Assembly (NCBI RefSeq): GCF_000007345.1
Contig: NC_003552.1
Span: forward strand, 4,774,001-4,838,000
Length of the DNA: 64,000 bases
Direction: 5' to 3'
Origin: Methanosarcina acetivorans C2A
GTDB lineage: Archaea > Halobacteriota > Methanosarcinia > Methanosarcinales > Methanosarcinaceae
Both the position numbers and the translations under genes were made by a program. The notes below the pieces were generated by a model. That model was not told the DNA's origin, did not search any database, and was given only the letters and a program-made list of their open reading frames with translations. This document shows positions 27,166-41,001 of the stretch, one piece after another (position 1 is the first letter of the stretch; each line of letters starts with the position of its first letter).

Positions 27166-28752
27166 ATGAAGAGAATAAGTTTTATACCCCTGAGATTCCT
27201 GGCACTCTGCTGCTTTGTCGGAGCGATGATTATCACTGCGGGATGTTTAGGACAGAGTGCTCAGACAGAAGACAATGTCCAAGAAGACAACATTCAGACG
27301 CTTATCGTTGCCGGACCCGCTGATTTTGATTCGAGAATAGAGATGAAGATGAATGTGTATGATGTCTTCCTCGACATCAATGCCAATGGAAAAACTATTC
27401 CCGGCCATCTTGTCAGTTCATGGAACGAGTCTGATGACGGATTAACCTATACTTTCCAACTCAATAAGGGAATAGAGTTCCACGACGGGACGCAATGGAA
27501 CGCGAGTTCTGCTGCATGGTTCCTGGAATGGTGCAGTCAGGGGCCAAGGAAGAACGATATCGCATTCTCAAAGATATCCGATGTAAGTGAGGTCGATGAA
27601 CATACAATACAGGTCACTCTGAAAGAGCCATATGGAGCTTTCATCAAATCGCTCTCATCGGAGTCGAACAGCCATGTCATCGCACCAACATCGGTCGAAC
27701 CTGCCTGGAGTAACGATGGAGAGATCGTATCCTTTATCGGGACAGGGAAGTTCGAGGTTGAGAACTATGTAAAGGCACAGAGTGCAGAATTTGTGAGACA
27801 TGATCCGGCCTCAGGTGAAGGAACGCTAATTGACCGGATATCTTATCGGGTAATTCCTGATAGCTATGCCAGTGTATCGGCGTTGCGTGCAGGTGATGTG
27901 GATATAATTGGAGTGGCGGACCACCATTCAACGGTCCCATATGAGCAGATCCCCCAGATGATGAACGATCCGGATATCATCGTCGAAAAGCAGTCCTACG
28001 GAAGATATCAGGTTGTGGAACTGAACTGTAAAGAGGGGGCGCTTAGTGATATTCGTCTCCGGGAGGCGATCAACCTCGGGCTTGACCGGGATAAGATGGT
28101 TAAAGAACTCCTCGCCAGCGCTGCAGAACCTGCGTATTCGGTTGTATCCCCTGCGTACCCATGGGCCAGCAACCTTGCAGGGACGGAATATACCTATGAC
28201 CCGGAGAAAGCAAAGAACCTCCTTGACCAGGCAGGATGGGTAGTTGCCGGAGCCGATGAAATTCGGGAAAAGGACGGACAGAAACTGACACTTACCTATA
28301 TCGTTCCGCAGGGTGAAGCAAACTCCGACTCGATTGCCGTCTATATCCAGAGTGAGCTGAAGAAGATCGGGGTCGAAGTGGATATCCTTGTGCTTGAAAG
28401 CGGTGCCGCAGGAGAAGAACGTCAAAAGGGCAACTATGACATGTATCTGCACCACAGCTGGGGAGTTCCCGGGCTGCCCGAAGGACCGCTTACCGGAAAG
28501 TATCACTCTACCTGGGGGTCATGGCCGGTATCTTATCATGATGCTGAGCTCGACCAGCTGATCGAAACAGCCATCGCTACCGGTGCAGATGAAGATTATA
28601 GCGCCGCATACCTGTATATTCAGGAGAAGTATGCCTGTATGCCGTTGTATGACATTGAGAAAATCGCTGCGTATAGAAAGGCTGTGAAAGGCTTCACGTT
28701 CTCTGCTTCGATCTACGGACTCGACCTGAGTACGGTTAGTATCGAACCTTAA
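27166..28752 (+). CDS. Nickel/peptide-type ABC transporter substrate-binding lipoprotein
   Basis: This protein of about 528 residues belongs to solute-binding family 5 (NikA/DppA/OppA). It starts with a lipoprotein signal ending in ITAGCLGQ, the Cys being the lipidation site. Family landmarks are VSSWNESDDGLTYTFQLNKGIEFHDGTQWNA early on and REAINLGLDRDKMVKELL in the middle. It captures its ligand outside the membrane for the permeases that follow. Start is ATG 27166 with AGAGGATTG upstream; TTG 27160 is in frame. The ligand may be Ni(II) with a chelator or an oligopeptide; the sequence alone does not decide. Confidence 0.88.
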   Translation: MKRISFIPLRFLALCCFVGAMIITAGCLGQSAQTEDNVQEDNIQTLIVAGPADFDSRIEMKMNVYDVFLDINANGKTIPGHLVSSWNESDDGLTYTFQLNKGIEFHDGTQWNASSAAWFLEWCSQGPRKNDIAFSKISDVSEVDEHTIQVTLKEPYGAFIKSLSSESNSHVIAPTSVEPAWSNDGEIVSFIGTGKFEVENYVKAQSAEFVRHDPASGEGTLIDRISYRVIPDSYASVSALRAGDVDIIGVADHHSTVPYEQIPQMMNDPDIIVEKQSYGRYQVVELNCKEGALSDIRLREAINLGLDRDKMVKELLASAAEPAYSVVSPAYPWASNLAGTEYTYDPEKAKNLLDQAGWVVAGADEIREKDGQKLTLTYIVPQGEANSDSIAVYIQSELKKIGVEVDILVLESGAAGEERQKGNYDMYLHHSWGVPGLPEGPLTGKYHSTWGSWPVSYHDAELDQLIETAIATGADEDYSAAYLYIQEKYACMPLYDIEKIAAYRKAVKGFTFSASIYGLDLSTVSIEP

Positions 28753-28763
28753 GAAGGTGTATT

Positions 28764-29723
28764 ATGGCCGGAGATATACCTATCTTATTAGCAAGAAGGA
28801 TACCATGGGCCCTTCTAACCATCTTTCTTGCATCAATTCTCGCATTTTCGATAATGTACTTTGCACCGGGAAATCCGGCCGAGATCATTTTAACACAGGA
28901 AACCGGAAATGAGCCGACAAGAGAGGCTGTTTTACTTTTCATGAACGGCCACGGGCTTGAACAACCTTTCTTAAAACAATACGCTGCCTGGATGACAAAC
29001 CTGTTTTCCGGAAGCCTTGGTATATCCCTCCGAACAGGTGATCCGGTTCTGGAAGAATTTACTACCCGTTTTCCGGCAACATTCATCCTTGCGGTGACGG
29101 CGATGATGCTTGCACTGGTAGTGGGCACCAGCATTGGTGTATTGTCAGCCATGAGGCCACATTCCCCGGTTGATCTATTTGGCAACTTCATCGCATCGAT
29201 GGGAACCTCAATACCTTCTTTCTGGCTTGCACTGCTGCTCATCCTCATATTCTCGATCCATCTTGATATCCTCCCTTCATTCGGATATGGAGGGATACAA
29301 CACCTTATCCTTCCAACAATGGCCCTCGGTTTTCTCCAGATATCAAGAATTTTGAGGATAACAAGAGAGAGCATGCTCGACGCCCTCTCCGAAGACTATG
29401 TCTTCGAAGCCTATGCAAAAGGCCTGAGGGAAAGAGAGGTTGTGGTGAAACATGCGTTTCGAAACGCTTCCGTCCCTGTTGTTACCCAGGCAGGACTCGA
29501 CATCGGAACACTCCTTGGCGGCACTGTGATCATCGAACAAATTTTCGGGTGGCCAGGAATAGGGAACTTTCTTCTGACATCGGTAATGAGCAGAGACTAT
29601 CCTGTCATTGCGGGATTTGTGCTCCTTATAGCTCTGATATTTGTGATCGTCAATATTCTCGTTGATATTCTGTATGTGTGCATCGATCCAAGGATGAAAC
29701 CGGGAGGAAACATTCATGGGTAA
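28764..29723 (+). CDS. Nickel/peptide-type ABC permease 1 (NikB/DppB-like)
   Basis: This is a 319-residue membrane protein with the N-terminal IPWALLTIFLASILAFSIMYFAPGNPAE of DppB/NikB, six transmembrane segments and the EAA-type loop AYAKGLREREVVVKHAFRNASVPVV. It forms half of the channel. It overlaps the next gene by 8 bp. The start follows GAAGGTG. Confidence 0.92.
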   Translation: MAGDIPILLARRIPWALLTIFLASILAFSIMYFAPGNPAEIILTQETGNEPTREAVLLFMNGHGLEQPFLKQYAAWMTNLFSGSLGISLRTGDPVLEEFTTRFPATFILAVTAMMLALVVGTSIGVLSAMRPHSPVDLFGNFIASMGTSIPSFWLALLLILIFSIHLDILPSFGYGGIQHLILPTMALGFLQISRILRITRESMLDALSEDYVFEAYAKGLREREVVVKHAFRNASVPVVTQAGLDIGTLLGGTVIIEQIFGWPGIGNFLLTSVMSRDYPVIAGFVLLIALIFVIVNILVDILYVCIDPRMKPGGNIHG

Positions 29724-30615
29724 CAGCTTGTATGGAAGAGGACAGAGCAGTCACCGAGAACAGAGCTGTCATTACCTACAGATCAAGTCCTCACGTATGA
29801 GTATAAAGGTGGTCATCAGCTGTATGGCTCTCTTTGCCTTTGCAGTAATGATTATCTTTCCAGGTGCATTAGCCCCCCATGATCCGAATGCTGTAGATCT
29901 TGACAACCGACTTGCAAAACCAGGAGTAGACCACCCATTTGGAACAGACCATCACGGTCGGGATATTCTTAGCCGGGTGATCTATGGGGCACAGACCTCG
30001 CTGGTAACTGCCCTCTCCGTAGTTGCCGTCGGTGCCATACTCGGTACCTTCATAGGCTTAGTTGCCGGATTTTTTGGAGGTGTTATTGATCAAACCATCA
30101 TGCGTATTGTAGACCTCTTCCTGGCATTTCCGGGGACAATCCTTTCTATAGCTCTGGTCGGATTATTTGGGGCTTCACTCTTCAACATAGTAATCGCACT
30201 CTCGGTGATGTGGTGGGTAAGTTATGCACGAATTATACGGGGATCTGTCCTCCAGGTAAAAGAGAAGGATTTTATCAAAGGAGCTCGGCTCATGGGGGGA
30301 AATTCATACTACATTATCAGGCAACATGTGCTCCCGAATGTACTCTCCCCTGTATTTGCCCTCGCCACACTTGATGTGGGATCCGCAATTCTTCATATCA
30401 CAGGCCTGAGCTTCCTCGGCCTCGGGGCCCAGCCCCCAACCCCGGAGTGGGGAGCGATGATTCAGGGAAGTATCGCTTTTATGGAGACCGCACCGCAGAC
30501 GATGATCTTCCCGGGACTGTGCATCATTATTACAGTCCTCTCATTCAACTGCCTGGGTAACTGGTTGAAAAAGAGAATTGATCCGATGAGGGCAGAGAAA
30601 ACTGATTTTCAATGA
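29716..30615 (+). CDS. Nickel/peptide-type ABC permease 2 (NikC/DppC-like)
   Basis: This 299-residue partner permease has the DppC hallmarks APHDPNAVDLDNRLAKPG, HPFGTDHHGRDILSRVIYGAQTS and the EAA loop GARLMGGNSYYIIRQHVLPNV. About 25 polar residues precede the first helix; a later ATG near residue 28 is possible but the 8-bp overlap with permease 1 favours 29716. It completes the channel. Confidence 0.92.
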   Translation: MGNSLYGRGQSSHREQSCHYLQIKSSRMSIKVVISCMALFAFAVMIIFPGALAPHDPNAVDLDNRLAKPGVDHPFGTDHHGRDILSRVIYGAQTSLVTALSVVAVGAILGTFIGLVAGFFGGVIDQTIMRIVDLFLAFPGTILSIALVGLFGASLFNIVIALSVMWWVSYARIIRGSVLQVKEKDFIKGARLMGGNSYYIIRQHVLPNVLSPVFALATLDVGSAILHITGLSFLGLGAQPPTPEWGAMIQGSIAFMETAPQTMIFPGLCIIITVLSFNCLGNWLKKRIDPMRAEKTDFQ

Positions 30616-30630
30616 ACGGGAACAGAGAAC

Positions 30631-31611
30631 ATGGATAACTTATCGTCTGAATTTACCAGTGAAACAGGCAAAGAGCCCATTCTACGTGTCAGAGATCTGA
30701 ATACAATATTTCTCACGGCAAATGGTCCGGTACAGGCAGTGAACGGCCTTGATTTTGACCTGAAGGAAAGGGAAAGAATGGCCATTATAGGAGAATCCGG
30801 ATGCGGCAAGTCTGTGCTTGCCCAGACCATACTAAAGCTCCTCCCATATAATGCACGAGTATCCGGGGAGATAATTTTTCACAATCAAGATCTGCTGGGT
30901 GCAGGGCAGGACCAGATGGTTAAGATCAGAGGTGGAGAGATCGGTTTGATCCCACAACAGCTCTCCTCCCTTGACCCTCTTATGAAAATTAAGGGCCAGA
31001 TTCGGAAAGCAATACAACCAAATGGAGGTTCCCGGGATAAAAAACAACTCTACCGGAAAGCTTTCGATCTCCTTAGCTCGGTTGGACTTGATCCGCAGGT
31101 ATCGAACAGATATCCGCATCAACTCTCAGGAGGGATGAACAGGCGAGTTTTGGTCTCGATTGGCATTGCACAAAATCCGGACCTCCTCATCGCAGACGAG
31201 CCAACTACCGGGTTGGACACGATTCTCAGGAACAAAACCGTGAAGCTGATAGATCGCATTACCGCAGGGCGTTCTCTCCTGCTGATCACCCATGATATCG
31301 GCGCGGCACAGATCTGTGAAAATCTTGCGGTGATGTATGCAGGTGAAATTGTTGAGAGGGGGCCTGCAAAGGACGTACTCGACAACCCCAGGCACCCCTA
31401 CACACAGGGCTTGATGTCTTCGATGCCTTCAAGGGGAATGTACTCGATACCGGGTATGAGTCCGAGCCTGATACAACTCCCGACCGGATGTCGTTTCCAT
31501 CCCCGGTGCCCATATGCAAAAGAGAAGTGTGCAACGCACCATCCGGATATACGAGGAGAGAACATATGCGGAGAGAAGAGGGGAGTTCGGTGTCATTATG
31601 CTTGCAGTTGA
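30631..31611 (+). CDS. Nickel/peptide-type ABC ATPase 1 (NikD/DppD-like)
   Basis: This 326-residue ATPase has Walker A GESGCGKS, Q-loop PQQLSSLDPLM, signature LSGGMNRR, Walker B LLIADEP and the C-terminal oligopeptide-transporter extension with conserved cysteines (CRFHPRCPYAKEKC). The signature is LSGGMNRR instead of LSGGMRQR, a conservative change. The 3' end overlaps the start of the next ATPase by 14 bp. Confidence 0.92.
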   Translation: MDNLSSEFTSETGKEPILRVRDLNTIFLTANGPVQAVNGLDFDLKERERMAIIGESGCGKSVLAQTILKLLPYNARVSGEIIFHNQDLLGAGQDQMVKIRGGEIGLIPQQLSSLDPLMKIKGQIRKAIQPNGGSRDKKQLYRKAFDLLSSVGLDPQVSNRYPHQLSGGMNRRVLVSIGIAQNPDLLIADEPTTGLDTILRNKTVKLIDRITAGRSLLLITHDIGAAQICENLAVMYAGEIVERGPAKDVLDNPRHPYTQGLMSSMPSRGMYSIPGMSPSLIQLPTGCRFHPRCPYAKEKCATHHPDIRGENICGEKRGVRCHYACS

Positions 31612-32521
31612 ACACCTTTCCAAGACCTACACCAGTGGTTTTTTAATACACAGGGAAGAAGTGCATGCTGTAAGGGATGTGAGCTTTTCAATTAAGGGCA
31701 CTGAAATTTTCGGGATTGTGGGAGAGAGTGGGTGTGGAAAGACAACCCTGGGCAAGATGCTTGTACGCCTGCTGGATCCAACAGGAGGAAGAGTGACAAT
31801 TGGCGATCTCGACATCACACGCCTCAGGGGATCAGAGTTGCAGAGATACTGGCCAAATCTCCAGATGATCTTTCAGGACCCAAGAGCCTCGCTTAACCCA
31901 AGGATGCGGATTGGAGATTCCCTTGTGGAAGGTCTGAAGCTCTCCGGGGAGAGAGATTTGATCGAAGATACCGTACAGGAAATCATTCAGAATATGAACA
32001 TACGTGAGGAAATCCTGAATCGCTACCCTCATGAAGTAAGCGGTGGTGAAATTCAGAGAATAGTCATTGCCCGTGCAATTAGTCTCAACCCAAAACTGAT
32101 CGTTGCAGACGAACCCACATCAAACCTTGATCTATCTGTACAGGCACAAATTCTCACATTGATAAAGAAAGTACAGAAAGAACGTTCGATACCCTGTGTG
32201 CTCATATCCCATGATATTGAAGTTGTAAAATGGATGTGTAACCGGATTGCGGTGATGCTCCGGGGAAGGATTGTAGAGGAGGGGCCGACAGATGACGTGA
32301 TCCGGAACCCTCTGCACCCCTACACAGAGGAACTTATTAATGCCTCATCTTTTTGTGGTGAAACAACAGAATATCAAAACCCTGAGGCATCTCAGCCCAC
32401 GGATGAAGGTTGTCCGTATGCGGGGAGGTGCACAGCAGCCAGACAGGAATGCCGGATTGGCGAGGTCCGGTTAAGAGGCGGTATCCATAAGGTTGCCTGC
32501 AGGTCGGTCAGTGAGGATTGA
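31598..32521 (+). CDS. Nickel/peptide-type ABC ATPase 2 (NikE/DppF-like)
   Basis: This ATPase of about 307 residues has GESGCGKTTLGKML, FQDPRASLNPRM, VSGGEIQR, LIVADEPTSNLD and a C-terminal CPYAGRC...C extension. I chose ATG 31598 because the domain begins at once (LAVEHLSKTY) and GAGGGGAG lies upstream; longer in-frame starts would overlap the previous gene by about 100 bp. With the four genes before it, it makes a complete importer. Confidence 0.9.
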   Translation: MLAVEHLSKTYTSGFLIHREEVHAVRDVSFSIKGTEIFGIVGESGCGKTTLGKMLVRLLDPTGGRVTIGDLDITRLRGSELQRYWPNLQMIFQDPRASLNPRMRIGDSLVEGLKLSGERDLIEDTVQEIIQNMNIREEILNRYPHEVSGGEIQRIVIARAISLNPKLIVADEPTSNLDLSVQAQILTLIKKVQKERSIPCVLISHDIEVVKWMCNRIAVMLRGRIVEEGPTDDVIRNPLHPYTEELINASSFCGETTEYQNPEASQPTDEGCPYAGRCTAARQECRIGEVRLRGGIHKVACRSVSED

Positions 32522-32599
32522 AACTTCCGGATTTCCATACATTCATTAAATTAAGACTGATTAAATTAAGAGTGTAATGCCCCTCTTGAGGAGCCGGAT

Positions 32600-33592
32600 A
32601 TGGATTACTCCCTAATTTTTTCCGAAGCTATGAAGCTATTCTCGATAATGCTCCCGATGATATTTATCGGCTTTTTTCTATCAAATCTCCTGAGGGCAAC
32701 CCGGTATCTAGAATACACCAGCATCCCCATGGCGTCTATCACGGAAATGGCCCGCCTTCCAAAAACATGCTCTTCTGTGCTCACCTTCTTTTTTTTAAAC
32801 TCCTGGTCGGGAATGGGCATGCTCTCTTCCTTCTTTCATAAGCGGATTCTCGGAGAGCGGGACGTCATTGTGACAGTCCTGATCGCTCAGCTACCAAAAG
32901 GGCTTCATAGTGCAATATTTTTTCAAGCACCTGTTGCACTCGCAGTACTTGGTTATGAAATCGGATTGCTGCTCCTCTTTTTAGAACTTCTGGTTTTCGC
33001 TGGTATTGCAGTTGCCGGAATATTCATAGGTAGAAAAATTCTTTTTAAAAATCCTTCGGAACATGGAGATAATACCGAACTGTCCATTTCAGAGGAAAAG
33101 GAAAAAGAGAAGGAAAAAGAAACCGGGTGCATAGCCAGAGCAGGAGCTGTACTTCAAAAAAGTTTTCATGAGTTCGGAAAGGTTGCCCTTGTCCTGGTTC
33201 CAACGACATTTTTATTCATTATCATCCTTAACCTGGGCCTGGCAGAGTACTCGGCAGAGACGCTTCAACCCCTCATGAACCCCCTTCGACTGCCGGATGC
33301 TGCAGTAATTGTATTTGCAGCAAGCTTTTTGAGTCAGATAGCCGTCCTTTCGGCAGCTGGCACAATAGTCGTAATAGAACAAATAACCGTTCTTCAGTGT
33401 CTTGAGATGCTCTTCATTGCCCGGGTACTACACCTTGGAATTGGTTATGTTAAGACGTCTCTTCCGACAAATATCGCCCTATTCGGGAGAAAACTCGGTC
33501 TTCGAGTAACCTGCGTGGAGGGCTTCATGGTTGAAACAGGGCTGACATGTATCGTTTTACTCCTCATAATACTGCAAACGTACCCGGGTTGA
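32600..33592 (+). CDS. Gate/nucleoside-recognition domain membrane protein
   Basis: This 330-residue integral membrane protein has about eight to ten hydrophobic segments in two similar halves, separated by a highly charged Glu/Lys loop (about 165-182). Segments with STEMARLPKTCSSVL and NSWSGMGMLSSFF resemble the Gate (PF07670-like) domains also found in FeoB-type and nucleoside transporters. It lies 78 bp after the ABC operon, behind GAGGAGCC, in the same direction. A role in moving the same substrate or a metal ion is inference from position. Confidence 0.65.
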   Translation: MDYSLIFSEAMKLFSIMLPMIFIGFFLSNLLRATRYLEYTSIPMASITEMARLPKTCSSVLTFFFLNSWSGMGMLSSFFHKRILGERDVIVTVLIAQLPKGLHSAIFFQAPVALAVLGYEIGLLLLFLELLVFAGIAVAGIFIGRKILFKNPSEHGDNTELSISEEKEKEKEKETGCIARAGAVLQKSFHEFGKVALVLVPTTFLFIIILNLGLAEYSAETLQPLMNPLRLPDAAVIVFAASFLSQIAVLSAAGTIVVIEQITVLQCLEMLFIARVLHLGIGYVKTSLPTNIALFGRKLGLRVTCVEGFMVETGLTCIVLLLIILQTYPG

Positions 33593-33673
33593 GAAGAAAA
33601 ACACTCAGATACCTGCGTAAGAGCCGGCGGATTCGGGTGCCGAACTGTCTTTCGATCCGCCACCAGTTACGAA

Positions 33674-34243
33674 CTATTTATCTTTAAATACCTTCATAAA
33701 AATTGTATTTTCGGAGATTCTACTCTCGGTATCGACTCCGTATGATTCAAATAAACTTTTGAATGTTGTTAAATTTAATTTAGAATTATTAAGACCCAGA
33801 CTATGAGTTAGTGCCAGCAAATAGTAGTCGCCATTGTCCTTGCAGTCTACTGTATCAAACAGGTGTGATGTTCTAAAAACAACCGTTAGCCCATCTACAA
33901 CTTCTTTCAGACTGCACTCCTTAAGAGACTTCTGAAGAAAGAACTCTACTACACATTCTATGGGTTTGTTTTTTGTCACATATTCCTTAAATCGCTCAAA
34001 ATTGGCAGTTTCCATCAGTATTTTTAAAGCTCCTTTTTGGACACAACAAACCGAACCTATCGATTCACAACCCAGCCAAAATTTTTGTTCAAGAGTTAAT
34101 TCCGGGCACTGTTTTGAATTGTTTTCCAGACATTCCAATGCTAGTTCCAGGGCTTTTTGTTGTGTTTCAAATTTTTCTGCGTGCTTTTTTAATAATCCCC
34201 AATGTTTCTCTGAAATGGTGGTGGCAACGCGGCGTCTTTTCAA
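33674..34243 (-). CDS. Unknown protein with possible N-terminal DNA-binding helix pair
   Basis: This 189-residue protein begins MKRRRVATTISEKHWGLLKKHAEKF followed by a helix with QQKALELALECLE, a pattern reminiscent of ribbon-helix-helix repressors (short strand, two helices). The rest (about 50-189) has several cysteines and no recognised family. The gene is AT-rich compared with the transporter operon beside it. Convergent with the gate-domain gene, it ends 82 bp from it. A regulator is possible but unproven. Confidence 0.6.
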   Translation of the reverse strand: MKRRRVATTISEKHWGLLKKHAEKFETQQKALELALECLENNSKQCPELTLEQKFWLGCESIGSVCCVQKGALKILMETANFERFKEYVTKNKPIECVVEFFLQKSLKECSLKEVVDGLTVVFRTSHLFDTVDCKDNGDYYLLALTHSLGLNNSKLNLTTFKSLFESYGVDTESRISENTIFMKVFKDK

Positions 34244-34582
34244 ATGTTACACCTCATGATTCTATTCCTCTTATTCGCTTCATTAGTGTTTTCATGTACA
34301 TCCCGGACATACGATATGCAGATAACCTATTTTTACATGTGTATATGTTTCTAGCTATATTCACAAAACGCTCGCATAAGGCAGTGTGTTCATTATTCTA
34401 TAAAATTACAAATCCTCTAAAATGACGGAGTAGAAACTCTACACTGATAAAGTGTCCACGAGATTTGAAAAATGAACAGGTTTTGTGATAAAATCTGTGC
34501 ACACTACGTAGAGCGAATTCGCAGAAAACATTGCCATAGATGAACTTTAGACTTAGGTTATAACGTAAGAGGTGAATTTTGA
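34244..34582. other. AT-rich intergenic region between divergent unknown genes
   Basis: No gene is supported; the two plus-strand frames are low-complexity shadows. This gap holds the divergent promoters of the 33674-34243 gene and the 34583 gene. The latter has a ribosome-binding site AAGAGGTGAAT. Confidence 0.4.
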
Positions 34583-35896
34583 ATGATAGATCTTAAACTT
34601 GATTTAAAAGTTAAAAATACTTTAGTGGGTGCTACACCTATAAAAACCATTAAACAAATGTGGGATGCAGCAATTCAGTATTATAACGACCCTGATAACC
34701 CTCTAAACGACTCAGAAGCAATGTATGCTATTCATGATCGTATGGATGCACGGTTAACTTTTCAAGATATTGCAAATGTTATGAGTGGAGTATACGCGGA
34801 TACATACTGGAACGGAACATTTATGGATCCTGTTATGCTCGCTAAAAACATGGTGCAAGGTTTAGCAATTGATCGTGATTTGGCTAACCGGTATGCTAGT
34901 GGTGCCATGTCTCTATGGAAGGGCATATTGGTGCGGAAGAATTTTTCCGACTCGGGGACAATTCCAGTAGCAAGCAGTTATACTTTGAGTATTGACGTAG
35001 TATGTAACCAAAATACACGTGTTCCTTCAACTGATGCGTTGATAAATAATTGGAACAATGAATATTGGAAAACACCGCAAGTTGATAAAAATTATATCTA
35101 TGTTCGTTGTCAAAACCTAAATTTCAAAGGAGACATTACAAATCCACAAATACAGTTGTTCTATACTGAAGCTGGATTTAATGCACCTCCTAGCTCTTGG
35201 ATACAAATGTTGACCGATGCCAAAAGCGCTAAAGAGGGGGATATACTGCTTTTGGGAGGAAAAACGGGACCAATGGCTGAAGGTGTTCGTGGGGTTAGTG
35301 AAGCATTTGTTTTTACTCCTAAAACTACAAATCATTTATGTCTCATTGCTGCGATAACGTCTGATTTCTTTACAAAAAACGATCCCTTAAAAAGCATTAA
35401 TTCAAACTGGGATACCGCAACCTGGATTAGACATAATGGGGCAGCCGGATGGCATAATGTAGATCCACAAAAATCTATTGAGTCAACACTTAAGTTCTAT
35501 AATCAAGATAGTCAACCGGAAAAATTTGCTTTTGAAGCCCACTGTAATAAAGTGCCAGAAGGCACAGTAGTAGCTCTTAAGTGTAATGATTCAAAATTAC
35601 AGTGCATACAAAGTGATGGTATTAAAATCTCACGAAAATACCAAACTGCCTTAATGGAAGCCACGGTACCCGCTAATTATCAAGGTGATCTTAAAGTCCT
35701 GATAAACACTCCCAATGGTAAACTCCTTCCCGAAGGTGCCTCAGTAGAGGTGTGTATGACATGGCTTCTTGATCATAGCCATAAACGATATTTAGATGCT
35801 GCCGATATGCTCCGTGCTAATGCAGACAGCAGAGCAAAAAAAGAGATCAGAGTGCCTATGGGCAGTTTTACTTTCATTGGAACTTCAAACGAATAA
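34583..35896 (+). CDS. Large soluble protein of unknown function, AT-rich gene
   Basis: This 437-residue protein has no signal peptide or membrane segment. The first third is helical and polar (TIKQMWDAAIQYYNDPDNPLNDSEAM). The middle (about 125-260) is strand-rich with Trp/Pro turns and a TTNHLCLIAAI segment like those of Ig-like beta-sandwich modules. The last part holds a WLLDHSHKRYLDAADMLRAN helix. No family is recognised. Codon use is markedly more AT-rich (many AAT, TTA, GAT, ATA) than nif or nik genes, which suggests transfer. A strong start (AAGAGGTGAATTTTGAATG) supports expression. Confidence 0.75.
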   Translation: MIDLKLDLKVKNTLVGATPIKTIKQMWDAAIQYYNDPDNPLNDSEAMYAIHDRMDARLTFQDIANVMSGVYADTYWNGTFMDPVMLAKNMVQGLAIDRDLANRYASGAMSLWKGILVRKNFSDSGTIPVASSYTLSIDVVCNQNTRVPSTDALINNWNNEYWKTPQVDKNYIYVRCQNLNFKGDITNPQIQLFYTEAGFNAPPSSWIQMLTDAKSAKEGDILLLGGKTGPMAEGVRGVSEAFVFTPKTTNHLCLIAAITSDFFTKNDPLKSINSNWDTATWIRHNGAAGWHNVDPQKSIESTLKFYNQDSQPEKFAFEAHCNKVPEGTVVALKCNDSKLQCIQSDGIKISRKYQTALMEATVPANYQGDLKVLINTPNGKLLPEGASVEVCMTWLLDHSHKRYLDAADMLRANADSRAKKEIRVPMGSFTFIGTSNE

Positions 35897-36069
35897 ATAT
35901 TAGAACTTTTCTATTCCGATTACTGTCTAGTCTATGAGGGATGAACAATCTATAAGCTCAACCCTAGCTGGAAAAACTCTAATTCCCTGTAGACTCCACA
36001 GTACCAAAAACCTGATTGCTATATTGAACCGGATTTGTCGCTCTCACATACTTTTCTCAATACTATTCT

Positions 36070-36640
36070 CTTTTCATGGTTTTCAGAACAACTGCATCTT
36101 CCGGATTTTCACTTTCCGTGTTAAAACCCACATCTTCAAAAAGCTCCATCCATGAAGCTTCCGAGAGTTGGGGCTCATAGTGATGTTAATGTGCCAGCGG
36201 CTCAACTGCAATTAATGATCGTCTTTTTTCAGCACTCTCTTGATCTTAAAAAGAGCGAACTTAACATCCTCCAGGTGATGGAGCATGAAATAGCATGTAG
36301 TGACATTGATCGAATAGTCCTCAAAAGGCAGGGTATAAGCGCTGCCTGTTCTGAACCCACATTCGGCACACCAAGAACTTCTGCATTCATCCGAGTTGTT
36401 TTTTGCAAGTTCCATTGTAAGGCTTCCGAAACCGCTGCCGAGATCAAGGATGTTTTCTCCTTTTATGTCTGGAAATAATAAAGCAGGAAAAAACTGTGCC
36501 CTCACAAGGGCCACAGGGCTTCAGGAAATTCTGCTTTTTTTTCTTTTTCTGTGTTTATTTATACAGATAGAAAGGATAGCATAGCCCTTTGACTCATTAA
36601 TGCCATCAGACCCCGGAAATAAGCGCTGTCTACAATCTAC
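36070..36640 (-). pseudogene. Decayed SAM methyltransferase, paralogue of the gene at 40120
   Basis: On the minus strand the pieces SAYFRGLMAL, EFPEA.., VRAQFFPALLFPDIKGENILDLGSGFG, TMELAKNN, GSAYTLPFE, FMLHHLEDVKFALFKIKRVLKK and, in another frame, WMELFEDVGFNTES align in order with the intact protein at 40120-41001. Stops, frameshifts and a deletion of about 25 residues after TMELAKNN break it, and the N-terminal 85 or so residues are missing. It ends abruptly 7 bp from the stop of the neighbouring large lipoprotein gene. Confidence 0.85.
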
Positions 36641-36646
36641 TGCTGG

Positions 36647-39475
36647 TTAATCTCGTTTGGTAATCCGGTTCAGATCCTCTGTGTAAGTCCCGGCTCCGAG
36701 CCACCAGGTATCGTCGACTTTCTGGACGTAGCTCATTTTTGGTTCAAGAGTCATATTGCGGGCAGGGTTATAGTAATGGTAAAACAGGAACCCTCCTCCC
36801 TGTTGAGCCATGAAGATCTCGACTTTGGTGTAATTCACCCCGTAGGGATCCTGGAGTTCGGATAGATTCGTTCCGATCAGCTGGGCCTGATAGGGGAGCG
36901 CCAGGGTCGTTCCGTTATAATCGAAGGCATAGATATAGAGATTGCCGCGAACAAACGCCCCGTTCCGGTCGTTGAACTCCTCGATTGCGGTATCCTTTCC
37001 GTTTGTATTGGCATACTCAATTGCCTCCCCAACAAAGGATTTAAGGTTCTCTCTTACCTGTGGATCCGTCCCTGCCCTCACGATTGCCGAATCCTTCTGC
37101 GGATCGTAAATGCCAGACCCGATGATCCAGCTCTGGTTCACCATCATTACGTAGCTGAGTTTTTGTTTGACAGTGAAGTTATCTGCGGGGTCTGCATAAA
37201 AGTATCGGACAAAGCCTCCGCCGGACTGAGCAGTGTCGACCAGGTCCTGGATAAATAAGGTGCCGTTAGTGTCTGTGACGTTCCACCGCTTAGTCCCGAT
37301 GATCTCGGGCTGGAAGGGGAGAGCCAGCGTGGTGCCGTTTGTGTCGTATGCAAATATATAGAATTTCCCGTCAACGAATTGCCCGGCCTGGTTGTTGAAC
37401 TCACGAAGAGCAACTTCCTGTCCGTTTTCATGCGCATATTCGAAGGCTTTCTCGACGAATGCAGCAAGTTCCTCAGGAGATGCGGTGGAGTTATTAGCAG
37501 GCATTGCTTCCGACTGGTTCTGGCACAGCTTGTAATTGCCACTACAGACAATATAGGAGTTCCCATCACTTCCCCGGGTCAACCTGTAGTAGGCGGTCTT
37601 ATAATACAGGTTCGTCTGGACCGGATGCATATAGACATAATCCACCGATCCAGTCCCGTTTTTCAGTGCCCCTTCTAAAATCTCATCACGGAACGGTTTA
37701 CCGGTAACATCGGTCTTGCCCCTGAAATTCGTGCCGACAAGTTGAATGTTGTCCGCATGAGCAACGATGGTCAAATTCGTATCGTAGACGAAGGCATAGA
37801 GGCCCGGATCTTTCGAGTCACGGTACGGAGCTTCGCCGGCATTGATGCGCCGGAAAGTATCGGAAGCATTCTTCTCGATTGCTTTGACAGTTGTGTTTAC
37901 AAGCTCCATCACCGTGTCATCAGTAAATGTCTGCGGGGCACATCCGACCCCGAGATTCCGGTAGATGATCCGCTCATAATCACTGACACCTTGCTCGTCC
38001 CTCTGATCTCGTACTGTATCGAGAGCCTGCTGGAAAGCGCTGACAAGTGTGTCCGGGACATCCTTACTGAAGATGTAGTAGAAGTCGTTCTCACTCAGAG
38101 TGTACACGATCTCATACGCGTTGGGATCTTCTGCAGTACGTAACATCTGATGTCGGCCGGCGAGGTCCCCCGTTGCCCACAGGTCGATCTGGCCCTCTTC
38201 CAGCATCCGGAAGAGGTCTTCAGGGGTTTGACCATTGATGATCTGCGATTCGTTCACACCCTGGCTGGCGAGGAGGTCATTTTCGATTGAGGCCCGGATA
38301 GCACCGATCCGGTACTGGTTGAGATCTTTCGGAGAGGATATTGTAATATTACTGCTCACCGGTGCATAGAGAACAAAATTTGCCCTGGTAAAAGGTCCGG
38401 CCCACTTGTAGAAGGGCTCACGTTCGGGGGTGCGGACGATTGAGAAAAGCACCGTACTGGTGTTGTTCTGCGCTATCTGGAAACCTTCCGCAAGGGGGAC
38501 AATACGGACATCTGCCCTTGAGCGGTTTACGCCAATGTTTTTGAAGACCGCCTCGAGTATCTCGACAGAAATACCGGTGACATTCCCGTCCTCCTGATAG
38601 TTGAAAGGAGCCCATTCTTCGGTCAGGTAATTTAGTCGGGCAAGGCCGATCGATGGAATGTATTTCCCGAGGATTCGATCATAAGTGCTGATGCCCTCAA
38701 CGTCTTTTTCCCGTTTGACGGCATCGAGTGCCTGCTGGAAAGATTGGACGACCGAATCAGGCACGTCTTTACTGAAGGCATAGTAGAGATCCTGAGTTTC
38801 TAATTGATACACAACCGTATAGGAATAATAGCTCCCGGTTAGCTCTTCGGTAAAGTACCTGCCTGCGTCCTCGGGACATGCCCATAAGTCGATGTCCCCG
38901 TTCTCAAGTCCGGCAATGATTGCGGACACGTTGCTTTCGGGCGCGATCTGGCTCTGGTTTACTCCGATATCGAGCAGCTGCCGGGTCGCGATATCGTCGG
39001 CGATCACCCCGATCCTGTATCCCTTCAGATCTTCAGGGTTCTTTATTGTGATCCCCCGGTCTCGCTTGGCAAATAGAACGTATCTGTCAGAATAGATGGG
39101 CCCGGCCCATTTGAAGAACTGTTCCCGCTCGGGGGATCTTGCCATGCTGAAGAGAACAGTATTATTCCCGTTAAGAGCAGCCTGATATCCCTCAGTCCAA
39201 GGGACCAGGTGTACCTCCTCCCGTGTCACCTTCTTCCCCATCTTCTCTGTAATCTCTTCAAGGAGATCAACGGAGAGGCCTTGCAGCATACTGTTCTCCA
39301 TGTAGTTATATGGAGGTAGCTGTTCTGTGTAGTACGTCAGGTTGACAGACATCGTAGCGCTGCTCAGGCCTGCGGATGCAACTTCATGTTCTTCAAGGCA
39401 TCCGGCGGCTGGAAGCAACGCCCCAAGCATAACTGCAATAAGGATGAAATTCGTGTACCGTGGAGATCGCGACAT
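36647..39475 (-). CDS. Lipoprotein with two SBP_bac_3 domains and three Cache-like domains
   Basis: This 942-residue surface protein starts with a lipoprotein signal (lipobox LPAAGC, Cys26). Two family-3 solute-binding domains follow (about 45-272 and 278-515), each with YxxE..PP/APFNY at the start, R.PEREPFYKWAGP in the middle and FQQALDxV...Y at the end. Three Cache-like sensor domains occupy about 530-650, 668-790 and 815-935; the last two share YIxAYDxNGTTLALP, GGGFxxYxY and SYVxxVxxxWxxGxGxY. There is no membrane anchor beyond the lipid and no kinase, HAMP or receptor output domain. Base composition is GC-richer than its neighbours. Confidence 0.88.
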   Translation of the reverse strand: MSRSPRYTNFILIAVMLGALLPAAGCLEEHEVASAGLSSATMSVNLTYYTEQLPPYNYMENSMLQGLSVDLLEEITEKMGKKVTREEVHLVPWTEGYQAALNGNNTVLFSMARSPEREQFFKWAGPIYSDRYVLFAKRDRGITIKNPEDLKGYRIGVIADDIATRQLLDIGVNQSQIAPESNVSAIIAGLENGDIDLWACPEDAGRYFTEELTGSYYSYTVVYQLETQDLYYAFSKDVPDSVVQSFQQALDAVKREKDVEGISTYDRILGKYIPSIGLARLNYLTEEWAPFNYQEDGNVTGISVEILEAVFKNIGVNRSRADVRIVPLAEGFQIAQNNTSTVLFSIVRTPEREPFYKWAGPFTRANFVLYAPVSSNITISSPKDLNQYRIGAIRASIENDLLASQGVNESQIINGQTPEDLFRMLEEGQIDLWATGDLAGRHQMLRTAEDPNAYEIVYTLSENDFYYIFSKDVPDTLVSAFQQALDTVRDQRDEQGVSDYERIIYRNLGVGCAPQTFTDDTVMELVNTTVKAIEKNASDTFRRINAGEAPYRDSKDPGLYAFVYDTNLTIVAHADNIQLVGTNFRGKTDVTGKPFRDEILEGALKNGTGSVDYVYMHPVQTNLYYKTAYYRLTRGSDGNSYIVCSGNYKLCQNQSEAMPANNSTASPEELAAFVEKAFEYAHENGQEVALREFNNQAGQFVDGKFYIFAYDTNGTTLALPFQPEIIGTKRWNVTDTNGTLFIQDLVDTAQSGGGFVRYFYADPADNFTVKQKLSYVMMVNQSWIIGSGIYDPQKDSAIVRAGTDPQVRENLKSFVGEAIEYANTNGKDTAIEEFNDRNGAFVRGNLYIYAFDYNGTTLALPYQAQLIGTNLSELQDPYGVNYTKVEIFMAQQGGGFLFYHYYNPARNMTLEPKMSYVQKVDDTWWLGAGTYTEDLNRITKRD

Positions 39476-39722
39476 GAAAAAAGTCTGCTATCAACGTATA
39501 AATATCGATACTAAATACTGATATCTATCACCATTTGCTAGGGATGCCTGTTTTGAGAGAGAAATGGCGAAGATTGGAGCGTACAATATCCAGGTTCCTG
39601 CTCACATTTCGGGCAACCTTTTAGGGCTTGTGTCCCCCCTTCCCTGAAGAAAGTCTTATATAATGAACTATGAGGGGATACAGAGAGAAGTGTATAAATA
39701 TATTGTGAAGGTATAACTACAC
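39476..39722. promoter_or_regulatory. Promoter region shared by divergent genes
   Basis: The 247-bp gap between the large lipoprotein gene and the small cysteine-rich gene is AT-rich, with TATA-like GTATAAATATATTG at about 39690, which fits the plus-strand small gene. No clear operator was seen. Confidence 0.4.
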
Positions 39723-39911
39723 ATGAGTTTTTTTAACACTGTATTCGGGAAAATTGATCTATTTGATACCAAATGCGAATACATATCGGTATGTGCTATG
39801 TATAAAAAGGATTCATATGTGTGCACAGAAGAAGTAGATAAGTCTTACTGTGGAATTTATAAACAGTTTTTACAAAATAACCTAAAATATTGTACACAGA
39901 TGTCTGAATAA
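39723..39911 (+). CDS. Small cysteine-rich protein of unknown function
   Basis: This 62-residue protein has five cysteines in the order CEYISVC, YVC, YCGIY and YC. An ATG behind GAAGG and a good TATA box about 30 bp upstream support a real gene. Cys spacing suggests metal binding or disulfides. No family is recognised. Confidence 0.5.
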   Translation: MSFFNTVFGKIDLFDTKCEYISVCAMYKKDSYVCTEEVDKSYCGIYKQFLQNNLKYCTQMSE

Positions 39912-40119
39912 AAATACAACACATCTACAGTAAAAAATGTACTGATTCAATAAGTCACAAAACTTTAAAATCGACTCTTCACAGAGGAGCAGATACGTGA
40001 GAGGGGTCGGAGAAGTGTGAAAATGAATTGAAAGATCACAAGATCCAGATTTGTATGCTGGAAAGCCTTCCGCTCCATTTTTGAAATTGTTTTCTCCTAA
40101 CCTATATTATTTTTCCTGG

Positions 40120-41001
40120 TTATCCTCTTTTTACAGCTTTCAGAACGATTGCACCTTCCGGAGTTTCACTTTCCGCGTTGAAACCCACATCCTCAAAAAG
40201 CTCTATCCAGGCGGTTTCCGAGAGCTGGGGACCGTGATGGTGCTGATGCGCAAGCGGTTCGACTGCAGTTAATAATCCGCCTTTTTTCAGCACCCGTTTA
40301 ATCTCGAAAAGTGCGAATTTAATGTCATCAAGGTGGTGGAGCATGAAAAAGCAGGTAGCAGCATCCACAGAGTCCCCTTCAAAAGGCAAGGCATAGGCGC
40401 TTCCGGTTTTGAACTGCACATTGGGGATCCCAAGGACTTCTGCATTCATCTGGGACTGCCCGGTGAGAGAATCGTGAATGTCGATCCCGTAAACCTGTGA
40501 TTCGGGGTTGTTTTTTGCAAGCTCCATTGTAAGGGTTCCGAAACCGCTACCGATATCAAGGATGGTTTCTCCTTTTATTCCGGGAAACACGGAAGGGAGC
40601 ACCTGAGCCCTCACTTGTGCCATGCGATCTTCAGGGAACTTCGCATTTTTTGCTTTATCTGCATCAATTGATGTAAAGGGAAGGATAGCGAAGATCTTTG
40701 ACCCGTTAACCGCCATCAGACCCCGCACGTAAGCGCTCCCGGTTTCGGCTACGACAAGCTCCACAACCGAAACTCCGACACCCTGACAAAAACGCAAGTT
40801 CCATGCCTCACGTTTTTCAGGGAATCGGAAATTCAGGGGAGTATGCACCACAATATAATGGGAGTAGTCCTGGCTGAAATACGCTGATACGGATTCAGGT
40901 TCTTTAAGGCGGACTTCACTTATGCTTTCCCTGAAAAGGGAGAGAATTTGCAGGGAACTTTCATCTGCCTCGTTTCTTACAGTTCCAATTTCTCCGAACA
41001 T
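40120..41001 (-). CDS. SAM-dependent methyltransferase with N-terminal extension
   Basis: This 293-residue protein has an N-terminal domain of about 130 residues of unknown type, then a Rossmann methyltransferase with motif I ILDIGSGFGTLTMEL, YGIDIHDSLTG, GSAYALPFEGDSVDAATC, FMLHHLDDIKFALFEIKRVLKKGG and a His-rich AHQHHHGPQ. The start ATG follows AGAGGT. A truncated, frameshifted copy lies at 36070-36640, with the large lipoprotein gene between them. The acceptor is unknown. Confidence 0.8.
   Translation of the reverse strand: MFGEIGTVRNEADESSLQILSLFRESISEVRLKEPESVSAYFSQDYSHYIVVHTPLNFRFPEKREAWNLRFCQGVGVSVVELVVAETGSAYVRGLMAVNGSKIFAILPFTSIDADKAKNAKFPEDRMAQVRAQVLPSVFPGIKGETILDIGSGFGTLTMELAKNNPESQVYGIDIHDSLTGQSQMNAEVLGIPNVQFKTGSAYALPFEGDSVDAATCFFMLHHLDDIKFALFEIKRVLKKGGLLTAVEPLAHQHHHGPQLSETAWIELFEDVGFNAESETPEGAIVLKAVKRG

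Follow-up and report, generated by a model that had tools for sequence, protein, structure and literature searches.

A lipid-anchored Methanosarcina protein with two SBP_bac_3 and three sCache_2 domains and no output domain: origin by fusion and a possible role as a surface co-receptor

Introduction

The locus analysed here raises the question of what a surface protein made of SBP_bac_3 and Cache modules could do without an output domain of its own. Activation of sensor kinases and chemoreceptors by solute-binding proteins (SBPs) is an established mechanism, reported for archaea as well (PMC9602780). A survey of Cache domains describes them as found up to then only in proteins that carry an output signalling domain (PMC4822843). 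The gene lies in a window of 64,000 nucleotides (the whole stretch of DNA that was analysed) from Methanosarcina acetivorans C2A, whose genome forms a single contig of 5,751,492 bases and whose near relatives in our search were other Methanosarcina. A literature search under the guessed locus tags MA3912-MA3916 returned no paper on the gene.

Results

Domain architecture and export signals

Reading of the open reading frames identified one intact frame with an ATG start at 36647-39475 on the minus strand, encoding 942 aa. A signal peptide and lipobox (LLPAAG followed by Cys26) occupy residues 1-26 (39398-39475). Pfam matched SBP_bac_3 in two stretches (E 1.4e-23) and sCache_2 in three (E 1.1e-50), both well over cut-off, and a dCache_2 match spanned the last two Cache domains. 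With borders taken from a family HMM built on the orthologues, and with all features on the minus strand, the modules comprise SBP1 (residues 44-271; 38663-39346), SBP2 (279-506; 37958-38641), Cache1 (517-653; 37517-37927), Cache2 (666-794; 37094-37480) and Cache3 (803-936; 36668-37069). Pfam identified no output domain in the protein. Strongly hydrophobic 19-residue windows occurred only at residues 5-30, the highest Kyte-Doolittle value of any such window beyond residue 40 being 0.97. The original prediction of a lipid-anchored surface protein with two amino-acid-type binding domains, three Cache domains and no transmembrane or signalling domain past the signal peptide therefore held in each of these respects. 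An Rfam search returned no match.

The protein displays 26 N-X-S/T sequons, compared with 7.2 +/- 2.4 in shuffled sequences, an excess that fits a surface-exposed glycoprotein; it is probably N-glycosylated at the cell surface. Lipidation does not extend to all family members, as the lipobox Cys is replaced by Ser in the full-length orthologue of genome G082 (L041, 7811-10639, plus strand). A comparison of two orthologues gave dN/dS of ~0.06-0.16 in all five domains, showing that every domain is under purifying selection.

Orthologues, synteny and gene history

Full-length or near full-length copies with ~77-83 % identity were present in seven Methanosarcina genomes, this one included. Another such copy was found in G009, which belongs to another genus of the same family, and a further full-length orthologue in L082. 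Because full-length orthologues exist in other genomes, a frameshift artefact joining two genes is ruled out, although the gene is still an old fusion (see below). Most Methanosarcina carriers share a gene order of nifD-K-E-N with mod genes, the lipoprotein gene, a methyltransferase and glnK-amtB, all of which are also present in the window. Here modC and the lipoprotein gene are separated by ~11 kb containing an oligopeptide-type ABC importer (25125-36000), whereas in several other carriers the mod genes directly adjoin the lipoprotein gene.

The upstream SAM methyltransferase (40120-41001, minus strand) is a Methanosarcina-wide neighbour, with or without the lipoprotein. Any part that it takes in lipoprotein function would be putative. 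Downstream, a second and decayed copy (36069-36613, minus strand) persists as pieces 49-69 % identical, with stops and frame changes, so the flanking of the gene by a dead and a live copy of one methyltransferase, as originally described, is real. Many Methanosarcina retain the methyltransferase and glnK-amtB and lack the lipoprotein gene, and in two genomes (G075 and G097) decayed lipoprotein pieces lie directly downstream of the methyltransferase. The conserved synteny in Methanosarcina, together with remnants where the gene has been lost, argues for vertical descent plus losses and not for recent acquisition, which we reject; the acquisition initially suggested is not supported. The GC-rich codon use cited in favour of acquisition does exist, GC3 being 0.602 against 0.488 +/- 0.072 for window ORFs (the second highest value), but it is mild: nearby nifE (0.576) and modC (0.588) are close, codon GC is shifted in the same direction in the orthologues, and codon use is ordinary for the locality. 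The upstream region (39476-40119) contained no match, at two mismatches, to the NrpR-like operator CGGAA-N6-TTCCG.

Origin by duplication and fusion

A profile of the SBP-Cache form gave matches in 27 of 136 genera of the phylum (53 of the 392 genomes sampled). The 942-aa form was itself the longest open frame among the matches listed, and no kinase or chemoreceptor (MCP) part was fused to any of the members seen. Relatives display several modular forms, including SBP alone, SBP-Cache (~420 aa), SBP-SBP-Cache (~650 aa, e.g. Methanoculleus), separate lipoproteins with two, three or four Caches, and the full 942-aa form.

Domain trees placed every SBP2 in one clade (100/100) and every Cache1, together with the Caches of SBP-Cache forms, in another (100/100). 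Cache3 clustered with the second Cache of multi-Cache lipoproteins (100/98); Cache2 fell among the first Caches of these proteins, though on lower support values. Because the Cache tree contained branches flagged as long, we rely on no groupings beyond these. In G069, 205 bp separate an SBP-SBP-Cache gene from a neighbouring gene for a four-Cache lipoprotein. The fusion joint in the 942-aa protein (residues 652-666; 37478-37522, minus strand) corresponds to the start of this separate lipoprotein, which has its own signal peptide. After ...YIVCSGNYKLC, the fused protein continues as QNQSEAMPANNSTASPEEL, matching the post-signal stretch QNQSSNASSASPEEV of the second G069 gene. According to the trees and the G069 gene pair, the two SBP domains descend from a duplication, and the three Cache domains were brought together when two lipoproteins fused. 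The internal duplication originally proposed for both sets is accordingly retained for the SBP pair but not for the Cache trio, in which Cache1 came with the SBP gene and Cache2 and Cache3 via the second gene. Judged from these sequence comparisons, the 942-aa gene joins an SBP-SBP-Cache lipoprotein to a multi-Cache one. As the separate forms are widely spread, we infer that the fused form is the derived state.

A second, independent joining of SBP and Cache was observed in Methanoregulaceae and relatives, where the SBP is combined with dCache_1. Some of these genes lie near sCache_2 lipoproteins (L171-L173); one such lipoprotein (L171, 9230-10900, minus strand) combines a PF22309 sensor domain with two sCache_2 domains, has no output domain and adjoins an SBP gene. 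Elsewhere, an SBP-Cache protein was fused to a DUF5122 beta-propeller (L165, 7677-10130, plus strand), and a 738-aa membrane protein with multiple helices, resembling dicarboxylate/cation symporters, ended in a C-terminal SBP_bac_3 domain (L039, 2988-5204, minus strand). The three other sCache_2 proteins found in the M. acetivorans genome are all exported Cache-cupin proteins without an output domain (L111, 2359-3309, minus strand; L112, 2400-3416, minus strand; L113, 2881-3810, plus strand), and a similar Cache-cupin frame was seen in L051 (12366-13262). A single dCache_1 protein was identified in the M. acetivorans genome (L189, 1386-3476, plus strand). Its dCache_1 is followed by a soluble domain and, at the C-terminus, by several transmembrane helices, with no Pfam output domain; the protein may resemble a ligand-gated channel.

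Ligand pockets and fold comparison

The nearest solved sequences to SBP1 include the signalling ectodomains of RmcA (7ejg) and of a histidine kinase sensor (3h7m). Arg117 of SBP1 occupies what we take to be the usual alpha-carboxylate contact position, and SBP2 has Arg352 at the equivalent site. The best of five full-length models (mean pLDDT 74.9, far above the rest) served fold comparison only, its VIA-align rows covering mainly residues 41-278; residues 512-942 folded alone gave a mean pLDDT of 42 and were set aside. Foldseek with the whole model ranked the GlnPQ tandem (6h30) first, BvgS next and EvgS fifth, the last two being tandem VFT matches (4q0c, E 8.2e-20; 9ilw, E 1.3e-15). GlnPQ likewise has tandem SBPs (SBD1-SBD2), but the lipoprotein is neither fused to nor encoded with a permease. 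The BvgS/EvgS sensor kinases also share two tandem SBP_bac_3-type domains, whereas the lipoprotein has no transmembrane, PAS or kinase parts and adds three Cache domains.

The chemoreceptor PscD binds C2/C3 carboxylates via Tyr90, His103, Tyr143 and Lys156, with the ligand between Trp92 and Trp145, and Phe126 lies where the pocket ends (PMC5062169). When all Cache copies were aligned, the equivalents of Tyr90 and Lys156 proved conserved throughout, and the Tyr143 position was occupied by Tyr or, in a small number of copies (the fourth Caches, like 4exo, and L059_C3), by Phe. Nearly all Cache1 domains have His at the His103 position (exceptions being Gln in L075 and Asn in L085), as do the later Caches of multi-Cache proteins, whereas the Cache2 and Cache3 lineages have Leu. 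At position 126, Cache1 domains carry Arg, or His in three. Within the 942-aa protein, Cache1 conserves Tyr560, His573, Tyr613 and Lys626, with Phe/Tyr at the Trp92/Trp145 sandwich and Arg596 at the pocket-end position. Cache2 conserves Tyr706, Tyr758 and Lys772 with Leu719 in place of His, as does Cache3 for Tyr847, Tyr899 and Lys913 with Leu860. By this alignment, Cache1 is the only Cache of the protein with the full PscD-type Tyr/His/Tyr/Lys set. The Cache1 pocket may hold a second acidic group. The Cache family and carboxylate contacts are shared with the sCache_2 chemoreceptors PscD (5g4y/5g4z), Adeh_3718 (4k08) and a Vibrio parahaemolyticus MCP (4exo/2qhk), from which the lipoprotein differs in having no transmembrane or MCP part, in the Leu for His in Cache2 and Cache3 and, against PscD, in the Arg or His of archaeal Cache1 at the Phe126 position.

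Transporter and signalling partners

SBP_bac_3 importers require a TIGR01726-type permease. This permease was absent or below cut-off in five of the seven Methanosarcina carriers (G086, G087, G088, G093 and G103), and in G082, where it was present, it had its own SBP gene nearby. No permease or ATPase of a polar amino-acid (PAAT) ABC importer was adjacent to the 942-aa lipoprotein gene. The one PAAT operon of the M. acetivorans genome (L117, 3157-5485; genome C1:918656-920984), intact in G082, is broken: its SBP gene retains a signal peptide followed by an EVADEE-type acidic repeat, a stop breaks the permease frame, and that of the ATPase runs for 156 codons before it is interrupted. With most carriers lacking the permease and this operon broken, a role as the SBP of a PAAT importer is unlikely; the SBP_bac_3 fold fits such a role but the cognate transporter is missing or broken in most carriers.

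The nearest bacterial relatives of the SBP domains (30-39 % identity) belong to Campylobacterota. At three loci (L089-L091) the SBP gene comes directly after those for a hybrid kinase (HAMP/HisKA/HATPase/REC/Hpt) and a response regulator, with genes overlapping or abutting, and the regulator was REC-HD_5 in the two tested. At a fourth (L088), the SBP follows a regulator and a kinase-like end. These SBPs resemble the archaeal protein in being exported with no adjacent importer in the loci read, but each is a single SBP without Cache, encoded with a hybrid kinase and HD_5 response regulator as the archaeal gene is not.

Around the archaeal members, the loci read contained no conserved neighbouring kinase, chemoreceptor, permease or channel. 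Across 657 kb surrounding 40 SBP genes, our own six-sequence HMM, which divergent kinases could escape, gave 16 kinase matches, of which none was conserved; the co-occurring kinase that had been proposed as a partner was thus sought and not found. Kinases lie beside the gene in scattered members (L047, 57 bp; L156, 82 bp; L161, convergent, 61 bp). Those in L047 and L156 are co-directional and have PAS/REC-type input; neither has an extracellular sensor domain by prediction, and both look cytosolic. Chemoreceptor co-occurrence was likewise rejected, as MCP number in the genus does not track presence of the lipoprotein.

Discussion

Our analysis leaves the co-receptor half of the original prediction as the likeliest reading, given bacterial SBPs encoded after kinase-regulator pairs and an importer missing or broken in most carriers, but without the specific kinase partner. 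That the 942-aa lipoprotein is a multi-ligand surface co-receptor acting in trans is a tentative proposal to which we give slightly less than even confidence. Under this proposal, a lipid-anchored, probably N-glycosylated protein would hold five small-metabolite-binding modules at the surface, the two SBP domains binding amino-acid-like ligands and the Cache domains small carboxylates. The ligand-bound form would then touch a membrane receptor and report occupancy in trans, making the lipoprotein a putative 'sensor ectodomain without its own kinase'. SBP co-receptors such as BctC, which acts on BctE (PMC9602780), are exported binding proteins, and the archaeal protein, with its export signals and predicted binding modules, could likewise report occupancy to a receptor. 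It differs in carrying five modules in one chain, Cache included, and in having no receptor encoded beside it as a conserved neighbour in the loci read, a feature that is usual in such systems but that the mechanism does not require. Because relatives occur across many methanogens, it is probably a detachable sensor for some other membrane partner.

The other half of that prediction, a scavenging platform whose modules would capture amino acids and short carboxylates and raise their concentration at the cell surface for uptake by unrelated (non-PAAT) transporters, draws on the lipid anchor, the several binding modules in series, the importer tandem of GlnPQ as best fold match and, in most Methanosarcina carriers, a position beside nif, mod and amtB nutrient genes. 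We consider it unlikely in view of the PAAT permease findings and of relatives outside Methanosarcina, which are not near nif or amt genes in the loci read; moreover, we know of no Cache domain that feeds a transporter. It is equally doubtful that the protein is an accessory subunit regulating a membrane channel or transporter from outside, as the Cache-bearing alpha-2-delta subunit does for calcium channels (PMC4822843). Alpha-2-delta has a different Cache family and a VWA domain and is eukaryotic, whilst Pfam finds no VWA domain in the lipoprotein and its neighbourhoods contain no conserved channel or transporter in the loci read. What the two share is being extracellular, membrane-anchored and Cache-bearing with no output of their own.

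A structural or adhesive surface protein, with binding folds that no longer take small ligands, could account for the sequons, the loss of the gene in many Methanosarcina, the Leu replacing the pocket His in Cache2 and Cache3, and the beta-propeller of one relative. Such a protein would not be expected to keep the pocket Tyr and Lys in every Cache examined, the His in Cache1 and low dN/dS across all domains, and we regard this explanation as very improbable.

A family combining SBP and Cache without output, present in 27 genera of one archaeal phylum, contrasts with the Cache survey (PMC4822843). More speculatively, and with considerable doubt, the output-less lipid-anchored multi-module lipoproteins of methanogens (SBP-Cache, multi-Cache and Cache-cupin) may be exchangeable extracellular heads for shared membrane receptors, with recognition split from signalling and heads recombined by duplication and fusion. 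Should these proteins act as co-receptors, detachable heads could serve many of the methanogen kinases that show no obvious sensor, a proposal that would be testable in a tractable archaeon.
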